IMG/VR virus record: IMGVR_UViG_3300027883_000033
Location: 1-21,601 of that record
From: a virus
DNA length: 21,601 nucleotides
Reading direction: 5' to 3' (one strand)
Positions 2,232 to 21,601 of this stretch are shown one piece after another. Below the pieces are notes generated by a model. That model was not told the origin of the DNA. It was given only the letters and a program-made list of their open reading frames with translations, and searched no databases. A program made the position numbers and the translations under genes. The first letter of the stretch is position 1, and each line of letters begins with the position of its first letter.

Positions 2232-4637
2232 TCACCTAGGTTCAAATTGTTCTAGGCCAAATCCACCGAGGTTGTCAAACCCTGCAGATTCAAAATTCTT
2301 TGGTAAAGAATCATTTTTTCTTTGATCAATTAACTCGCTTTGTTGAGTCGCTTGTATTTTTGTTCTATCGTCTTTACGATCTTCTTTATACTTTTCGTCA
2401 CTTTGTTTTGTGCCAGATTGAGCTTGAGCTAGTTGCATATTGTACTGGAATTCAACTTCCATTAATTGCTTTTTAATTTCCGCTTCCATCTGCATCTTCT
2501 GTATGTCAAACTGAGATTTCGATTGCTCTACTTGTATTTTAGTCTGTGATAAAGCTTGTTGCTTTTGCACTTCCGCCATTGCTGCAGCTTCTGATGCTTT
2601 AGCGTTTGCTTCTGCTTGAGCTTGTATATTTGCCAACTGAGCAGCTTTATCGCTTTCTTCTTTTTTCTGTCTTCTAAACTTAATAGATTCGTTAGCTAAT
2701 TTAATATTTTTAATTTGACGAATGTCAATAGCGTCCTCTAAGTTAATACCTCCTGATTGTAATGCTATCTGTATGTTTTGTTCCAACTGCTGCTGAGCCT
2801 CTTCATCTGGTTCTAACTCTAGATAAATACCAAAGTCATGCAAATTTAAAGTATCTATTTCATCTAATATTTCAGCGTTGTATATGGATACACTATTATT
2901 CATAGAATTACGAGTTAAAGGAAACTCTAATAAGTCTGCTATTTTTAACGAAACGTTTTCACACGTTTTAAGCGTTAAATATAAACCAGCTTGTAATATA
3001 TGTCTAGTAGCTACGTTAGACGCGTTAGCGGCCATCTTCTGAAGCCCTACTAATGAATTCTTATCCGGTTGACTACCATCTCTCGCTTCATTCAATCCCG
3101 TTACATCCCTTATCATTTGTAAGTAATACTGGTAAGTATTTATAAGAGCTGAAATCTTTCCTTGACCTGATGACGAAGATAACTCTTGCACAGGTATTTT
3201 CCCCCTGTTTAAATCACCGTCTTGTGTTAAAGATCTACCAACAACACTACCTGTTTGGAAATACATGTTTAATGCTTCGGCTGGATTGTAAGATGTGCCG
3301 TTACCAAGATCAACTTCAGCTAAACCATCCATATCTAAAAATACACCATCTGGTACTATTCTAGACATAACTTGTTGCAGCTTCAAATGAGTTAATTGAA
3401 TCATATCAGCGAAACCTGTTATACGACTAACTAAAGACTCTATTTTACCTTTATATATTTTAGGTGCACAAATAGAATAATTCATAGCCACCTTAGTGGT
3501 GTCTGCAAATGGTCTTGTCATATTTTCAGACATTTCCCACTTCAACATTTTATTATGGCCTAAAAGCTTAACACCTGTATATAAAACCTCTATAGTTCTA
3601 AATACTTTTTTAAACGAATCGTTTTCAGGTGGATTAAAACTGTCTGATTTTTCAATTGCTTTTTCAAGCCCTTGATCTGTTTTTTTAATTTTAAAGACTT
3701 GGTTCATATAAGTCTTGTATTCAAAATACATTAAAGAAACTTTTTCGTCGTCATTGCTACTATATCCACTTGTATAGTTACGTGAACTTGACATTTTTTC
3801 TATATCTTTTAGCTCCTCATTGCTTAACGATGGGAATTCTTTTGCAACCTCAGCAAGCGTTACTTCTTTCGCTTCACCTACATAATATAAATCTTCAAAG
3901 TTAGGATCTTCTGTGTAAGAGTAAACTATATTTGCAGGGTCTACATAATCAACTGTAATTCCTTCTGATTTATTAAAATTAGTTTTAGTAGCAGCAATAC
4001 CTATAACTGTTAAATCGTAGTCTAACCTACGCTTAGTTAAAGTATATTTATTGTTATCTAAAACGTTGTTTATTATTTCTTCTTGAGCTATTTCTATGTT
4101 TTGCTTATAGTCAAGCTGCATGTGAAGAGCTAGTTGGTTTTCATTTTCAGGAAGCATATCTGGATTCTCAACATTGTAAGTATCCATTCCCAATTTAGCC
4201 ATCATTTCCTCATTGAACTCTTTAGTACGCATATCAGCTACAATAGCCGAAACGTAATCTGTTCTTTTCTTACTAGACTCTGGATCTTGAGCGTAAGCTT
4301 TTATATCGTATGTTTTTTGGGACATACCGTTTACAACAATATCCACAAACTTAGGAATGATAGGTACTGGCTTCCAATCTAAATTAAGATAAGATAAATC
4401 ACCGTTTATAGACAACTCATCTTTATATTTTTGAATAGATTGTTCTCCCCTAGCATATAATCTAAGCTGGTGAAAAGCACCGTAATTAGACGAAAACCGA
4501 TTTTGTGATGATCTAGAACTTCCAAACCATTCGTGTTCTATAGCCCTAGCTACTTGTAAGCCGTATTCTGAACTGGCTTTTTCTTCGTCACTAACAGTTT
4601 GACTAGGAAAAGAGCTATTATAATTAGTTTCTATCAT
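2232..4637 (-). CDS. Portal protein
   Basis: An 801-residue protein directly follows the large terminase, with no spacer between the terminase stop and this ATG. The size and position match the portal proteins of crAss-like phages, which are larger than the roughly 500 to 600 residues usual elsewhere. Portals form the dodecameric DNA gate at one capsid vertex and dock the terminase. The N-terminal and middle parts are mixed alpha/beta with many aromatic residues. A segment around FQTGSVVGRSLTQDGDLNRG and IRDVTGLNEARDGSQPDKNS resembles the stretch before the portal stem and crown in crAss-like and related portals. Residues about 655 to 775 are a Gln/Ala/Glu/Lys-rich predicted coiled coil (for example QAQAEANAKASEAAAMAEVQ), followed by a Gly/Phe-rich tail. 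The portal call rests on synteny, length and overall character. Confidence 0.8.
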   Translation of the reverse strand: MIETNYNSSFPSQTVSDEEKASSEYGLQVARAIEHEWFGSSRSSQNRFSSNYGAFHQLRLYARGEQSIQKYKDELSINGDLSYLNLDWKPVPIIPKFVDIVVNGMSQKTYDIKAYAQDPESSKKRTDYVSAIVADMRTKEFNEEMMAKLGMDTYNVENPDMLPENENQLALHMQLDYKQNIEIAQEEIINNVLDNNKYTLTKRRLDYDLTVIGIAATKTNFNKSEGITVDYVDPANIVYSYTEDPNFEDLYYVGEAKEVTLAEVAKEFPSLSNEELKDIEKMSSSRNYTSGYSSNDDEKVSLMYFEYKTYMNQVFKIKKTDQGLEKAIEKSDSFNPPENDSFKKVFRTIEVLYTGVKLLGHNKMLKWEMSENMTRPFADTTKVAMNYSICAPKIYKGKIESLVSRITGFADMIQLTHLKLQQVMSRIVPDGVFLDMDGLAEVDLGNGTSYNPAEALNMYFQTGSVVGRSLTQDGDLNRGKIPVQELSSSSGQGKISALINTYQYYLQMIRDVTGLNEARDGSQPDKNSLVGLQKMAANASNVATRHILQAGLYLTLKTCENVSLKIADLLEFPLTRNSMNNSVSIYNAEILDEIDTLNLHDFGIYLELEPDEEAQQQLEQNIQIALQSGGINLEDAIDIRQIKNIKLANESIKFRRQKKEESDKAAQLANIQAQAEANAKASEAAAMAEVQKQQALSQTKIQVEQSKSQFDIQKMQMEAEIKKQLMEVEFQYNMQLAQAQSGTKQSDEKYKEDRKDDRTKIQATQQSELIDQRKNDSLPKNFESAGFDNLGGFGLEQFEPR

Positions 4638-10384: not shown

Positions 10385-10831
10385 TTATCTATTTTTATCT
10401 TTATTAACGTTATATATTGCTGTTTGTAAAACTTTATCCGTATAAGTTTTACCACGCATAATACTGTTTCTTTTTTCGCTAGAAGGTATATCTTCTTCCC
10501 CTAACATTATTCGATACATTTTGCTTATTAGCTGTTTACACTTAAAGGATACTTTATATATGTTATATTTTTGGGTGGTTCTATTTCGTGTTCTCCACAC
10601 TACAATCCATCCCTCTTTTAGTAACCTATTCCATCGTCTATTATCCCAGCTATAAGCGTATGTACCTATTTTAAAATCATGCTTAGTAAAAAATTCCATA
10701 CAATCAAAATAAATAAGTAGTTCAAGATCTGCATCGTTTAAACTGTTATTTCTGCATGCCCATTTACGTATAACACGATAATGTTTTAGCAAGTTCATAT
10801 CTTTAATATCCCTTGCTTCTAATCGTTTCAT
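10385..10831 (-). CDS. Winged-helix-like protein linked to groES
   Basis: A 148-residue protein starting MKRLEARDIKDMNLLKHYRV. Residues about 10 to 100 read like a winged helix: helices LLKHYRVIRKWACRNN and DADLELLIYFDCMEFF, then SWDNRRWNRLLKEGWIVVWR and a wing-like TQKYNIYKVSFKCKQLI. MarR-like and replication-initiator-like proteins have this plan. The start overlaps the groES stop by 4 bases (ATGA), so the two are translationally coupled. A role as a late regulator or as a packaging or DNA-binding factor is possible. Proteins with this N-terminus recur, from memory, in uncultured marine phages. Its function is unknown; DNA binding is inferred only from the predicted fold. Confidence 0.68.
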   Translation of the reverse strand: MKRLEARDIKDMNLLKHYRVIRKWACRNNSLNDADLELLIYFDCMEFFTKHDFKIGTYAYSWDNRRWNRLLKEGWIVVWRTRNRTTQKYNIYKVSFKCKQLISKMYRIMLGEEDIPSSEKRNSIMRGKTYTDKVLQTAIYNVNKDKNR

Positions 10832-11088
10832 AATACCACTACTACGTCTTGATTCTTTATAACGTGTAGTTTTTCATTATCTATTTCTATTCCGTGTCCA
10901 GCTGTTTTGTCGTAGTATATTACATCATCTTCATTTACACCTTCAACGTCTGTACCAACTGATACAATAGTAGCTTTGCGATATCTTATATCTTCTCTAC
11001 TTTTTTCATTAAGTATTAAACCACCTTTTGTCTTGGTAGTTGTTTCTTTAATGATTTTTATTATTAAGTTTCTACCTATTGCTTTCAT
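10828..11088 (-). CDS. groES: Co-chaperonin GroES (phage-encoded)
   Basis: An 86-residue protein, shorter than the roughly 97 residues of bacterial GroES. It begins MKAIGRNLIIKIIKETTTKT, matching the GroES N-terminal strand. The mobile loop carries the needed pattern GGLIL (residues 22 to 26), equivalent to the GGIVL that contacts GroEL. It continues with KATIVSVGTD (GEVLAVGNG in E. coli) and ends HVIKNQDVVVVL (LIMSESDILAIVE). The roof loop is shortened. It is translated from an ATG that overlaps the end of groEL by 17 bases, so stoichiometry may be coupled. As the heptameric lid of the chaperonin it would cap the GroEL ring encoded just upstream. The preserved hydrophobic tripeptide suggests it is functional. 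Confidence 0.88.
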   Translation of the reverse strand: MKAIGRNLIIKIIKETTTKTKGGLILNEKSREDIRYRKATIVSVGTDVEGVNEDDVIYYDKTAGHGIEIDNEKLHVIKNQDVVVVL

Positions 11089-12625
11089 CTTCTACTCTTA
11101 AGTTGTTGATTACACAATCTGTTGACAATATAGTTGTAGCTACTGATGCTGCATTTTTTAATGCGCTTTTAGTAACTAGTAAAGGATCAATAATACCAGA
11201 CTTAATCATATTAACGTCTTTACCGGTAACTACATTAATCCCTTTACCTTTTCCTTTTGGATATACTTCTTCTAAACCAGCGTTTTTAAGTATAGTTAAA
11301 TAAGGAGCTTTAATAGCTTCTAATAAAACCTGTTCGTTATTGTTGCTTGGCTTAACGTAAGTAGAAGCATTTAACAAAGCAATTCCACCACCTGGTACAA
11401 TACCTTCTTTAATAGCGGCTTTTGTAGCACACATTGCATCTTCAACTCTATCTTGCTTTTCTTTAAGCTCAACCTCTGAACTTGCACCTACTTTTATAAC
11501 AGCTACTTTACAAGATAATAAACCTAATCTTTTTTCTAATCTATTAAGCTTGCCTGGTAAAGTTTCTTTTTTAATGTCATCTTGTATAGAATCGATAACT
11601 TCTTGTACCTCAATAGAAGTGTCACCTACTTGTATAATGGTCTCCTGGTCGTTTGTAATGGACTTTAAACACTTTCCTAGCATTTCTACCTCTATCATAT
11701 CTAAGTCGTCACCAAGGTCTTCATTTACGACCGTAGCACCTGTTAGTAGAGCTAAATCTTGAAGCTTTTCTTTTCTGTATATTCCAAAGTCAGGAGTGTC
11801 AATGATATTGACCTTAATATTACCTTTCATTTTATTCATAGCTAAAGCAGATACGACTTGTTCGTCCGCTTCGCCAATAATTAATAAAGGCTCGTTGTTT
11901 TTTATAACATACTCTAAAACGCTTTGAATTTTACGTATGTTCTCTATTTTGTTTTCGACTAGTAATACTAATGGATTTTCAAGTACAGCTTCTTTTTTAC
12001 TTTCGTCTGTAATAAAGTGAAAGTTTTTTAAAGGTTTATCTATTGTAGCCCCATTTATTACTTCGTAACTTGTTTCGCTATCGTTTGAAACCTCCATAGT
12101 AACAACCCCATTCTTGCCTACTTGTTTAAAAGCTTCAGCAATGACATTACCAAGTTCCTTGTCATTGTTAGAAGAAATTGTTGCAACATGATTTACCATA
12201 TCCCCTTCAACAGGTACTGCTAGCTTTTCTAAATATGCAATTACTTTTTTGGTAGCTGATTCAATACCTTCTTTCATTTCCCTAGATCCGCTATTACTTG
12301 CAGCATATGCTTCTAATAATATTGAGTGTGCTAAGACTGTAGCTGTTGTGGTTCCATCTCCAGCTTCTTTCACAGTTTGCCTAGCTGCTTCCTTTAGAAG
12401 CGTTGCACCCATATTCTCAATAGGATCTCTAAGTGTTATTGAATTTGCGACCGTTACACCATCTTTGGTTATAACAGGTCGACCTAACTCGTTTTCTAGC
12501 AACACACATTTACCACTAGCCCCTAAGGTAGAGCTAACGGCTTTTGTGAGTTTTTCTATACCTTTAAATACGTTGTTTTTAGCTTCCTCGCCAAAGGCAA
12601 GGTTCTTAACAATTTGGTTTGACAT
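11072..12625 (-). CDS. groEL: Chaperonin GroEL (phage-encoded, divergent)
   Basis: A 517-residue group I chaperonin that folds proteins inside a ring driven by ATP. ATP-site residues are present: D55 in ITKDGV, D90 in GDGTTTAT, G412-G414 in PGGG, D396 in RVEDAM and D480 in GIIDP. The family signature around AGDGTTTATV is intact. The P-loop TLGPKG is changed to TLGASG (residues 33-38). In the apical domain, the E. coli segment GYLSPYF reads PLKNFHF here, and other substrate-binding positions are also changed (L234 to Gln, V263-V264 to Ala-Met). The C-terminus stops soon after TDCVINNL and lacks the Gly-Gly-Met repeat. It is an intact, divergent, probably active chaperonin. It likely helps fold virion proteins such as the capsid or fibre; that is an inference. 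Confidence 0.95.
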   Translation of the reverse strand: MSNQIVKNLAFGEEAKNNVFKGIEKLTKAVSSTLGASGKCVLLENELGRPVITKDGVTVANSITLRDPIENMGATLLKEAARQTVKEAGDGTTTATVLAHSILLEAYAASNSGSREMKEGIESATKKVIAYLEKLAVPVEGDMVNHVATISSNNDKELGNVIAEAFKQVGKNGVVTMEVSNDSETSYEVINGATIDKPLKNFHFITDESKKEAVLENPLVLLVENKIENIRKIQSVLEYVIKNNEPLLIIGEADEQVVSALAMNKMKGNIKVNIIDTPDFGIYRKEKLQDLALLTGATVVNEDLGDDLDMIEVEMLGKCLKSITNDQETIIQVGDTSIEVQEVIDSIQDDIKKETLPGKLNRLEKRLGLLSCKVAVIKVGASSEVELKEKQDRVEDAMCATKAAIKEGIVPGGGIALLNASTYVKPSNNNEQVLLEAIKAPYLTILKNAGLEEVYPKGKGKGINVVTGKDVNMIKSGIIDPLLVTKSALKNAASVATTILSTDCVINNLRVEDESNR

Positions 12626-19716: not shown

Positions 19717-20442
19717 TTAGTTTAAATATGCTTTCCCTGCAAAAGGCGCGGAGAAATGTAGTGTTATGTTATTATTATCTATATATGTATATTCTCCGTT
19801 GACAACCGTGCCACCTGTATCTATTACTGTTATTGATGGGAATTTTCCTAAGTTATGAGTTACAACTTTAGGAGAGCCATCACCCCACTCTGTAGCAGGC
19901 GTTCCTTGCTCAAACACATAAGTAGGTGTTCCTTGCGTCGGTAGAGTAAATACCGCAAAGTCATAGTATAACAGCTCTGTTAAATTACCATTACCTGCAA
20001 TATTAGTTAGGTTTAATGTGTAAAAACCATCATCTGGGTTATTGATTGTGTAGCTATCTATTTTAAAGTGGCCAAAAGTGCTTATACTGTTCTGCTCACT
20101 TATGAGAATATTGTTACCTACTATGTAATTCATAAAACCAACAACCTCTTGCTTTGAAATATCTTCCACAGAAAGTTGCATTGTAGTTATGCTTATCATA
20201 GCAGAACCCTCTGCTGGGCCAGAAAAATCTCCAGCGCCAGGAGCCGGATAATTAGCTGCATTATTTGTCCAATACTTAAACACCATTTGAGCAGATATAG
20301 ATATCTTACCTTTAATGTTTAAGTACTCTGCTACAGACTCCGCTGTGTATTGTTTAGTAAACTTAGTAAAAGAGTCAGAACCCACCCACGCATCTTTGTC
20401 GTTTATCGTAAGGTCAACGGGGAAAGTATTTATTATAGCCAT
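19717..20442 (-). CDS. Tail appendage protein with C-terminal fibre-type domain
   Basis: A 241-residue protein starting MAIINTFPVDLTINDKDAWV. The first ~150 residues contain KGKISISAQMVFKYWTNNAA and ISKQEVVGFMNYIVGNNILI. The C-terminal domain, VVTHNLGKFPSITVIDTGGT to FSAPFAGKAYLN, is a unit found at the ends of many phage fibres and tail proteins and may be a carbohydrate- or trimer-contact module. It lies between two other fibre-like genes, with a 6-base gap to the next. A tail-fibre or baseplate role is inferred from its composition and neighbours. No catalytic motif is seen. Confidence 0.75.
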   Translation of the reverse strand: MAIINTFPVDLTINDKDAWVGSDSFTKFTKQYTAESVAEYLNIKGKISISAQMVFKYWTNNAANYPAPGAGDFSGPAEGSAMISITTMQLSVEDISKQEVVGFMNYIVGNNILISEQNSISTFGHFKIDSYTINNPDDGFYTLNLTNIAGNGNLTELLYYDFAVFTLPTQGTPTYVFEQGTPATEWGDGSPKVVTHNLGKFPSITVIDTGGTVVNGEYTYIDNNNITLHFSAPFAGKAYLN

Positions 20443-20450
20443 GTTTTATA

Positions 20451-20906
20451 TTATGCTTGTGTTATTACAAAAACCCCTCCATTACCCATAGTTACTTTAT
20501 AGTATGTCATGTCTGGAGACATCATATAGATGGCAGCGGTTGGGGATGTTAAATTGATAGCCGCATTACTGCTTTGCATTGTTATATCACCCGTAATGTT
20601 TAAACCAGTTTTAATACTAGCACTTAGATTACCAATAAAGATTGTCCCAGTAACATCGGTACTAATATTAGCAAACCCGCTATTTACTTTTAAAGTAAGA
20701 GCGCTGTCTATCGCTAAGTTCCCTGTTATAGTTCCACCTGCTAAAGATAAATATGTCCCTCCTACTGCTAAGTCTACTAAAGACTGCACTGTAAAGTTTC
20801 TCGTAGGAGTATCTGTTTCAGAAGATAAGGGATCCGGTGTTTGCGTACCTACTACTAGATCACTAGCTTTAGGTGTTGCTATTGGATATGTGAAAGTTAT
20901 TGCCAT
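20451..20906 (-). CDS. Small tail fibre-like protein
   Basis: A 151-residue protein starting MAITFTYPIATPKASDLVVG, followed by TYLSLAGGTITGNLAIDSAL, a typical 'LSGGTxTGNL' turn of phage fibre shafts. The rest is Ser/Thr/Ile/Ala-rich beta sequence ending YYKVTMGNGGVFVITQA. It is the first tail gene of the block, 3 bases after the stop of the small basic gene, and its MAI start is shared with its neighbours. It may be a short fibre or an adaptor to a longer one. Confidence 0.72.
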   Translation of the reverse strand: MAITFTYPIATPKASDLVVGTQTPDPLSSETDTPTRNFTVQSLVDLAVGGTYLSLAGGTITGNLAIDSALTLKVNSGFANISTDVTGTIFIGNLSASIKTGLNITGDITMQSSNAAINLTSPTAAIYMMSPDMTYYKVTMGNGGVFVITQA

Positions 20907-20909
20907 GTT

Positions 20910-21197
20910 TTATTTTTTAGTTTTTTTTGTCGATGTCTTCTTTTTTCTCTTACGATCCCCATTTTTAAACGTGTCTCTATTACTTGCTACCGATACTCTT
21001 TTGGTATTACCCACTTGACCTTTAACATGATGTATATCTGAAGTACTGCGTTGACCAATTTTTTGATTCTCCGCTTTCTTTGCTTTTCTTTTGTGCTGCG
21101 ATGTGGGTTTACCATTCCAAGCTATTCCCTTAGCATAAGCGATATCTCTTGCTTTTTTAGTAGCCGCTCCCTTAGCCGATAGTTTTTGTTTTCCCAT
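20910..21197 (-). CDS. Small basic HNH-like protein
   Basis: A 95-residue, very Lys/Arg-rich protein (MGKQKLSAKGAATKKARDIA). The central part, STSDIHHVKG then KRVSVASNRDTF, resembles the D-x-H-H and Asn elements of a beta-beta-alpha metal (HNH) finger (D54, H56, H57 and N73), but the zinc Cys pairs are absent and the protein is too short to be sure. The C-terminus is almost all Lys and Arg. It is the first minus-strand gene after the non-coding region. HNH proteins often sit near packaging genes; here it precedes the tail genes. It might equally be a virion DNA-binding protein. Confidence 0.6.
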   Translation of the reverse strand: MGKQKLSAKGAATKKARDIAYAKGIAWNGKPTSQHKRKAKKAENQKIGQRSTSDIHHVKGQVGNTKRVSVASNRDTFKNGDRKRKKKTSTKKTKK

Positions 21198-21491
21198 ACC
21201 TTATATACTTACGCGTATACCTTGTTACTTACATAGGCTCATAATGCGACGTTAGCCTCTTACTATAATATATAACTACCTATTGTCGCACTGGGGATCA
21301 AAAGAGATTTTTTTTTGAAAAAATTTTTTATTAGATACTTAGAGCTTGGGGGTTATATACTATTTTCTACTAGCCCATTGAAACGATAAACCCGTTTACA
21401 TTTGACCCAGTCCCCGTTTGTTTTTGAGGTTTAGGGATAATCTTTTACCTTTCAGTACGTTTTCCTGTGTATTGTTGAGGTATCCCGAGGT
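21198..21491. promoter_or_regulatory. Divergent intergenic region with candidate promoters
   Basis: No well-supported gene lies in these ~290 bases. A candidate minus-strand promoter is a TTTTG (-33-like; plus-strand 21299-21303) and, 20 bases on, TAGTTATA (plus-strand 21271-21278), a partial fit to the Bacteroidota TAnnTTTG element with two mismatches. It lies upstream of the HNH-like gene and could drive the late block. An inverted pair TGCGAC / GTCGCA (21245-21250 and 21285-21290) brackets that -7 region. An A/T homopolymer block occupies about 21307-21330. On the plus strand, GAGG at 21477-21480 is a possible ribosome site for the divergent gene. Confidence 0.4.
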
Positions 21492-21599
21492 ATGTACTGG
21501 TGTGCCGTGCTCGGATCGTGTTGTATCCTGACCCTGACCCTGGGTCTGTGCTGCGTGCTGATGCTGCTGGCAGAGGTAAAGCGTAGCGTAGCGAAGCGT
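21396..21599 (-). other. Stop-free minus-strand stretch at the right edge (weak partial gene candidate)
   Basis: Read in this frame from the right edge, 67 codons are open until a TAA at 21396-21398, ending LNLKNKRGLGQM. It could be the C-terminal end of a gene entering from the right. The same GC-rich bases are also open in the other two minus frames for about 50 codons and encode a better-looking plus-strand start, so the openness is probably an effect of base composition. Confidence 0.15.
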
Positions 21600-21601
21600 A
21601 T
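21492..21601 (+). CDS. Start of a divergent membrane protein (partial)
   Basis: From the ATG at 21492-21494 a plus-strand frame stays open to the edge (36 codons): MYWCAVLGSCCILTLTLGLC, then CVLMLLAEVKRSVAKR. Residues about 3 to 27 are strongly hydrophobic and are followed by a basic segment, as in a signal anchor or single-TM protein. GAGG at 21477-21480 is 11 bases before the ATG, a spacing suited to a Shine-Dalgarno. It would be the first gene on the plus strand in the window and suggests that genes to the right are read in the opposite direction, as in phages with divergent arms. The GC content is unlike the rest, so this could also be chance or an assembly-end artefact. Confidence 0.4.
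   Translation, partial: MYWCAVLGSCCILTLTLGLCCVLMLLAEVKRSVAKR

Follow-up and report, generated by a model that had tools for sequence, protein, structure and literature searches.

A probable non-coding boundary between diverging late and early gene arms in marine Bacteroidetes phages, with a putative operator dyad and an early promoter-like motif

The window analysed here is a marine phage fragment of 21,601 bases that makes up the whole of a linear viral record, so the feature under study sits on a contig end. According to the open reading frame (ORF) list, long minus-strand ORFs tile the window, and the long plus-strand ORFs face longer minus-strand ones. PHROGs names a virion structural protein, the portal, the terminase, an amidase and GroEL among the minus-strand products; beyond these genes lie long proteins with no assigned function, which are probably tail fibres, and then two small genes without a match. 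Within this late arm the GroEL gene is accompanied by a gene of GroES size (10828–12625, minus strand), and genes of both types are annotated in MW202828, elemoF and phi38:1. The first late-arm gene (20910–21197, minus strand) encodes a basic protein of 95 aa with relatives in 15 IMG/VR loci and no match in Pfam or in phage records. In seven of the 15 relatives the contig stops no more than 1.1 kb beyond the outer side of this gene, compared with 1.31 expected; these contigs are L002, L009, L010, L012, L013, L015 and L016, and the window stops likewise. This clustering of ends may reflect a genome end or an assembly break.

Using tblastn, the terminase and the portal matched 87 records each, and the first words of these records, among the matches listed, were Flavobacterium (68), Cellulophaga (15), Tenacibaculum (2), Caudoviricetes (1) and Maribacter (1). 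Judged by the homology of these two proteins, the phage is kin to the Elemovirus, Pervagoviridae and Pachyviridae phages. The comparison with crAss-like phages drawn in the earlier note gained no support, as the matches listed contained no record with a Bacteroides or crAss name, although phi14:2 is itself a Cellulophaga phage by name.

The 95-aa gene is followed by a conserved non-coding block (21198–21496), about 85% identical to L003–L006 and L009 by blastn and alignment, and then by a GC-rich, fast-changing segment (21497–21584) that aligns poorly with the relatives and contains indels. Across the equivalent of this segment the relatives carry CAGGACCAG-like repeats on the minus strand. 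The GC content of 21492–21601 is 0.573, compared with 0.32–0.41 in 1-kb steps of the window. The last 17 bases (21585–21601) are identical in L003, where they lie 4 bases before the TTTACAAG of the first copy of an early promoter-like motif described below; placed from L003, the first copy is expected to start about 3–5 bases past the end of the window. No near copy of the window end was found in viral contigs with a 29-base pattern, nor any of 20000–21601 in phage records by blastn. The RNA fold of 21330–21601 is no more stable than that of shuffled sequences (z −0.44), and Rfam gave no match in the window and only two tRNAs in eight pieces of the relatives.

At the right-hand end, the earlier note had placed a plus-strand membrane protein gene at the head of a rightward operon. 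The elements that it described are present: an ATG at 21492–21494 opens 36 codons up to base 21599, where the contig end cuts the frame; the translation, MYWCAVLGSCCILTLTLGLCCVLMLLAEVKRSVAKR, includes a hydrophobic stretch; one GAGG ends at 21490, one base before the ATG, and another at 21480; and the preceding 21198–21491 holds no firm gene, with no ORF of at least 50 aa in 21198–21395. By chance, 28% of random sequences with the composition of the segment, and 12.5% of those with that of the whole window, keep a run of 35 codons open. The GC3 of the frame is 0.72 compared with 0.17–0.31 in 16 chosen window genes, CTG supplies seven of its eight leucines compared with 1.8% of the leucine codons in the 16 genes, and its codon score falls below all 305 36-codon slices of those genes, from which the codon table used for scoring was also built. 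Three relatives that are about 85% identical to the window alongside, L003, L005 and L009, have a TAG directly after the aligned ATG. With the sequence of L003 as its continuation, the frame would run into the first early motif, which it precedes, and reach a stop after 18 further codons. No ATG-started ORF of at least 30 aa lies between the dyad (see below) and the first motif in L003–L006, and the ORFs of other relatives in this place are unlike the frame, save for a 40-aa ORF of L009 that shares its last six codons, RSVAKR. The best Pfam match has an E value of 0.58, far below the cut-off. Two minus-strand frames are also open at the contig end (21396–21599 and 21445–21600); both score below every gene slice, and L003 and L009 carry stops in the corresponding sequence, so that a gene is supported on neither strand. 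The codon score, the ATG–TAG of the relatives and the lack of a conserved ORF led us to reject 21492–21601 as a plus-strand gene, and for all its open frame and hydrophobic stretch we consider a real membrane protein gene here extremely improbable.

The boundary itself, where a leftward late block meets a rightward one, was well guessed, even if the membrane protein offered as evidence for it was not: the divergence is borne out by the relatives, by MW202828 and elemoF, where the strands diverge at about 43.8 kb and 17.9 kb, respectively, and by nine long contigs. The window itself covers the late side only, and the two-arm layout is seen in its relatives. In L003 and L008, small genes on the other strand lead away from the late gene. 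Near the start of the early arm, small genes of one VRKSWLGRNQ-like family are duplicated (L003 3626–3946 and 4891–5208; L008 4476–4706 and 5290–5520). In the nine related contigs (59–68 kb; ORFs called from ATG only, at least 45 aa), the terminase arm and the motif-bearing arm lie on opposite strands, with short opposite-strand runs as exceptions in some, such as six genes in G041; two of the contigs, G033 and G029, seem to start within the early arm, and G042 yielded no boundary dyad. Comparison with these genomes makes it probable that 21198–21601 is a non-coding control region, with the minus-strand late arm leading away on one side and, on the other, a plus-strand early arm that lies outside the contig.

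The motif of the early arm has a rigid core, TACAAA-N6-ACGA-N9-GATAATATA, within a full length of 46 bases, nattTACAAAntnaatACGAnnannnntnGATAATATAtatGaAtn, built from 25 sites, and lies upstream of the outgoing genes. Because the motif pattern was used to retrieve the nine contigs, its presence in them follows from selection, but its strand and distance to genes do not. All 72 sites of at least 18 bits lie on the strand opposite to the terminase, none lies deep within a same-strand ORF, and an ORF starts 10–55 nt downstream of 52 of the 72, compared with 8.7 on average, and never more than 17, when the sites were shifted in 500 sets. At 13 bits the motif is absent from the window and from shuffled sequence, as well as from MW202828, elemoF, phi38:1 and the first 48,000 bases of phi19:3 and Gundel_1; six whole phage records, Maribacter phage Panino among them, contain no match to the core even when 3 mismatches are allowed, and a reversed pattern gave no match in nine records. 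Scanning viral contigs yielded at least 119 stretches, and 36 of 37 contigs drawn from these contain a terminase relative (35 at 72–81% identity, one fragment at 67%). A collection of bacterial and archaeal genomes gave 19 stretches, mostly with a single site outside the multi-site contigs; the latter were in Bacteroidetes, Sphingobacteriales and Flavobacteriaceae bins and also in Ilumatobacteraceae and Aliivibrio bins, and those outside the Bacteroidetes are presumably misbinned phage contigs or chance matches. The placement of the motif, its strand and its spacing from ORF starts suggest that it serves as the early-gene promoter. A virion or T7-like RNA polymerase as its reader found no support. 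A search for PF00940 found nothing and was silent in control genomes too, and a scan for DxDGD-type motifs in the large proteins of the nine contigs and three phage records, where one contig piece may miss a polymerase gene and the window holds none, gave scattered single matches only. Giant virion RNA polymerases are highly divergent in sequence.

On the late side of the boundary, 21246–21289 forms a 44-bp dyad, an imperfect palindrome with the half-site GTGACAWTAGSC and an AT-rich centre, which is probably an operator for a phage DNA-binding protein. The boundary copy is present in the window and in all 15 IMG/VR loci (among which L003–L006 are near-duplicates) and in six of the nine long contigs, and the pattern gave no match in 0.8 Mb of shuffled DNA. 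Short ORFs are called over three of the boundary dyads (47 aa in G041, 61 in G050 and 66 in G031), and G032 has a called minus-strand ORF of 93 aa that separates the dyad from the first motif. The dyad recurs within the early block and over the start codon of a conserved protein of about 206 aa. Several early-block copies, in G033, G032, G050 and G028, are 51–89 nt before an early motif; the G033 dyad at 207 was counted among early-block copies despite an adjacent minus-strand ORF, because it stands beside an early-block RNA-like element. The early block also contains a conserved non-coding sequence about 46 nt long, TGGCCTGATCTTGAAATA..ATCGGAAGAGTAGACTCCGYCCTACG, often beside a dyad (L003 at about 4440–4485, minus strand; L007 at 890, L101 at 4104, L107 at 1883, and others); its pattern gave nine stretches in viral contigs, and the pieces searched had no match in Rfam.

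The gene for the 206-aa protein occurs once in each of the nine contigs. The first set of such genes was picked by the dyad pattern, and a later profile search covered all loci without it, giving 41 rows, of which none was dropped for a late start and 37 were left after identical starts were removed. In 33 of these 37 distinct genes the dyad lies at about −37 to +7 of the start codon; three have it slightly upstream of the profile-derived start, and one has a diverged copy only, as is found at the regulator start of G042, where the pattern used detects no dyad. The structure was predicted with a mean pLDDT of 88.7, and in fold comparison residues 148–205 align weakly to mostly helix–turn–helix (HTH) domains (best Z 5.6), while several HTH families of Pfam match below the cut-off. 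No match was found in phage records by tblastn, no solved relative below an E value of 0.19 and no PDB fold match below 0.8; the one viral fold match is A0A516MIB4 (TM 0.61). In elemoF, a weak match to profile positions 54–177 (NC_055853.1, 19088–19459; E 3.6e-4) lies about 1 kb from the boundary. Both the regulator gene and the early motif are absent from the window and are carried over from its relatives.

Facing the late gene, the minus-strand element GTAAGTATATAA (21201–21212) resembles a late promoter and ends 3 bases before the ATG; we infer that it is the late promoter. Elements of this kind come after the dyad, no more than 90 bases away, in 30 distinct contexts, at 25–56 nt in 24 of them, compared with 58 of 4000 random 90-base stretches. 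The distances appear stepped, and we make no claim of helical phasing. With 2 mismatches allowed, the longer, 17-base form of the element occurs once in the window and is at the boundary in only four of the nine contigs; elsewhere it gave three matches, one of them opposite to the terminase strand, and shuffled DNA gave two. Were GTAAGTATATAA the late promoter, transcription of the late genes in this subgroup would begin at the ATG of the first of them or directly beside it (21196–21212), giving a nearly leaderless mRNA.

The best reading of these positions is that the dyad is the operator of a self-regulated early/late switch protein. The HTH protein would bind the dyad over its own start codon and repress its own synthesis; it would also bind in the early block and at the boundary, upstream of GTAAGTATATAA, where the late operon would start, and by binding at these three places may turn the programme from early to late.

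Replication origins are known at strand boundaries of this kind, and the HTH protein could instead bind the dyad as an origin or as a site of recombination; the dyad's position at the boundary would then reflect replication rather than transcription control. Such a role would suit the small number of dyads per genome, one to three in eight of the nine contigs, and the long imperfect palindrome around an AT-rich centre. It does not account so readily for the copy over the start codon in 33 of 37 regulator genes, since an operator across a regulator's own start codon is the usual sign of self-regulation, nor for the early-block copies close before an early motif in four contigs, and we regard an origin or recombination site as unlikely. 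Folding into an RNA hairpin, perhaps one that acts as a translational operator for the regulator, would likewise explain why the dyad covers that start codon. Among 137 unique dyads, however, agreement between the arms is within 0.07 of that of independent arms at 15 of 16 positions and lower at position 7, with positions 11–16 the cleaner test because the collecting pattern constrains positions 1–10. As the agreement is no higher than for independent arms, a DNA site is favoured over an RNA stem; the boundary and early-block copies, moreover, do not overlap conserved gene starts, and a hairpin is in our view quite improbable.

Among the closest known phages, MW202828 (Caudoviricetes sp. isolate ctfjg026, Manatee Spring) is similar in its terminase (64% identical), portal (53%), GroEL and chaperonin-10 genes and diverging strands, but has no early motif (up to 3 mismatches), dyad or regulator homologue. 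The Flavobacterium Elemovirus phages (elemoF 6-3D) share the terminase (45%), the portal (43%) and the strand divergence, and differ in having neither motif nor dyad and only the weak regulator profile match. Cellulophaga phages phi38:1 (Pervagoviridae) and phi19:3 (Pachyviridae), with terminases 37–38% identical and late genes on one strand, lack the motif and the regulator, and no dyad was found in the whole of phi38:1 or in bases 1–48,000 of phi19:3. The Crassvirales (crAss001, phi14:2) also have early/middle and late gene blocks; no conserved DxDGD-type motif was found in the large proteins scanned here; the early genes of phi14:2 are read by a virion RNA polymerase, according to the portion of PMC10136315 consulted. 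The region is of an ordinary kind, and its promoter-like motif and operator-like dyad are lineage-specific.

To our knowledge, few early promoters or temporal regulators have been mapped in flavobacterial podoviruses. Literature searches, including the consulted portions of PMC10136315, PMC8375218 and PMC7886860, found no description of the early motif or the dyad. In summary, we tentatively propose, as one possible account, that a large uncultured group of marine Bacteroidetes phages combines a rigid, lineage-specific early promoter with a new family of self-regulated HTH proteins, in which 44-bp dyads would link the boundary, the early block and the regulator's own gene, such that early genes are repressed and late genes activated, a switch absent from the literature searched. 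The frame at the contig end illustrates that a GC-rich spacer of an AT-rich phage can mimic a membrane protein. The motif alone singles out this phage group among 2.9 million viral contigs, and from it follow testable promoters and operators, together with one candidate regulator per genome.
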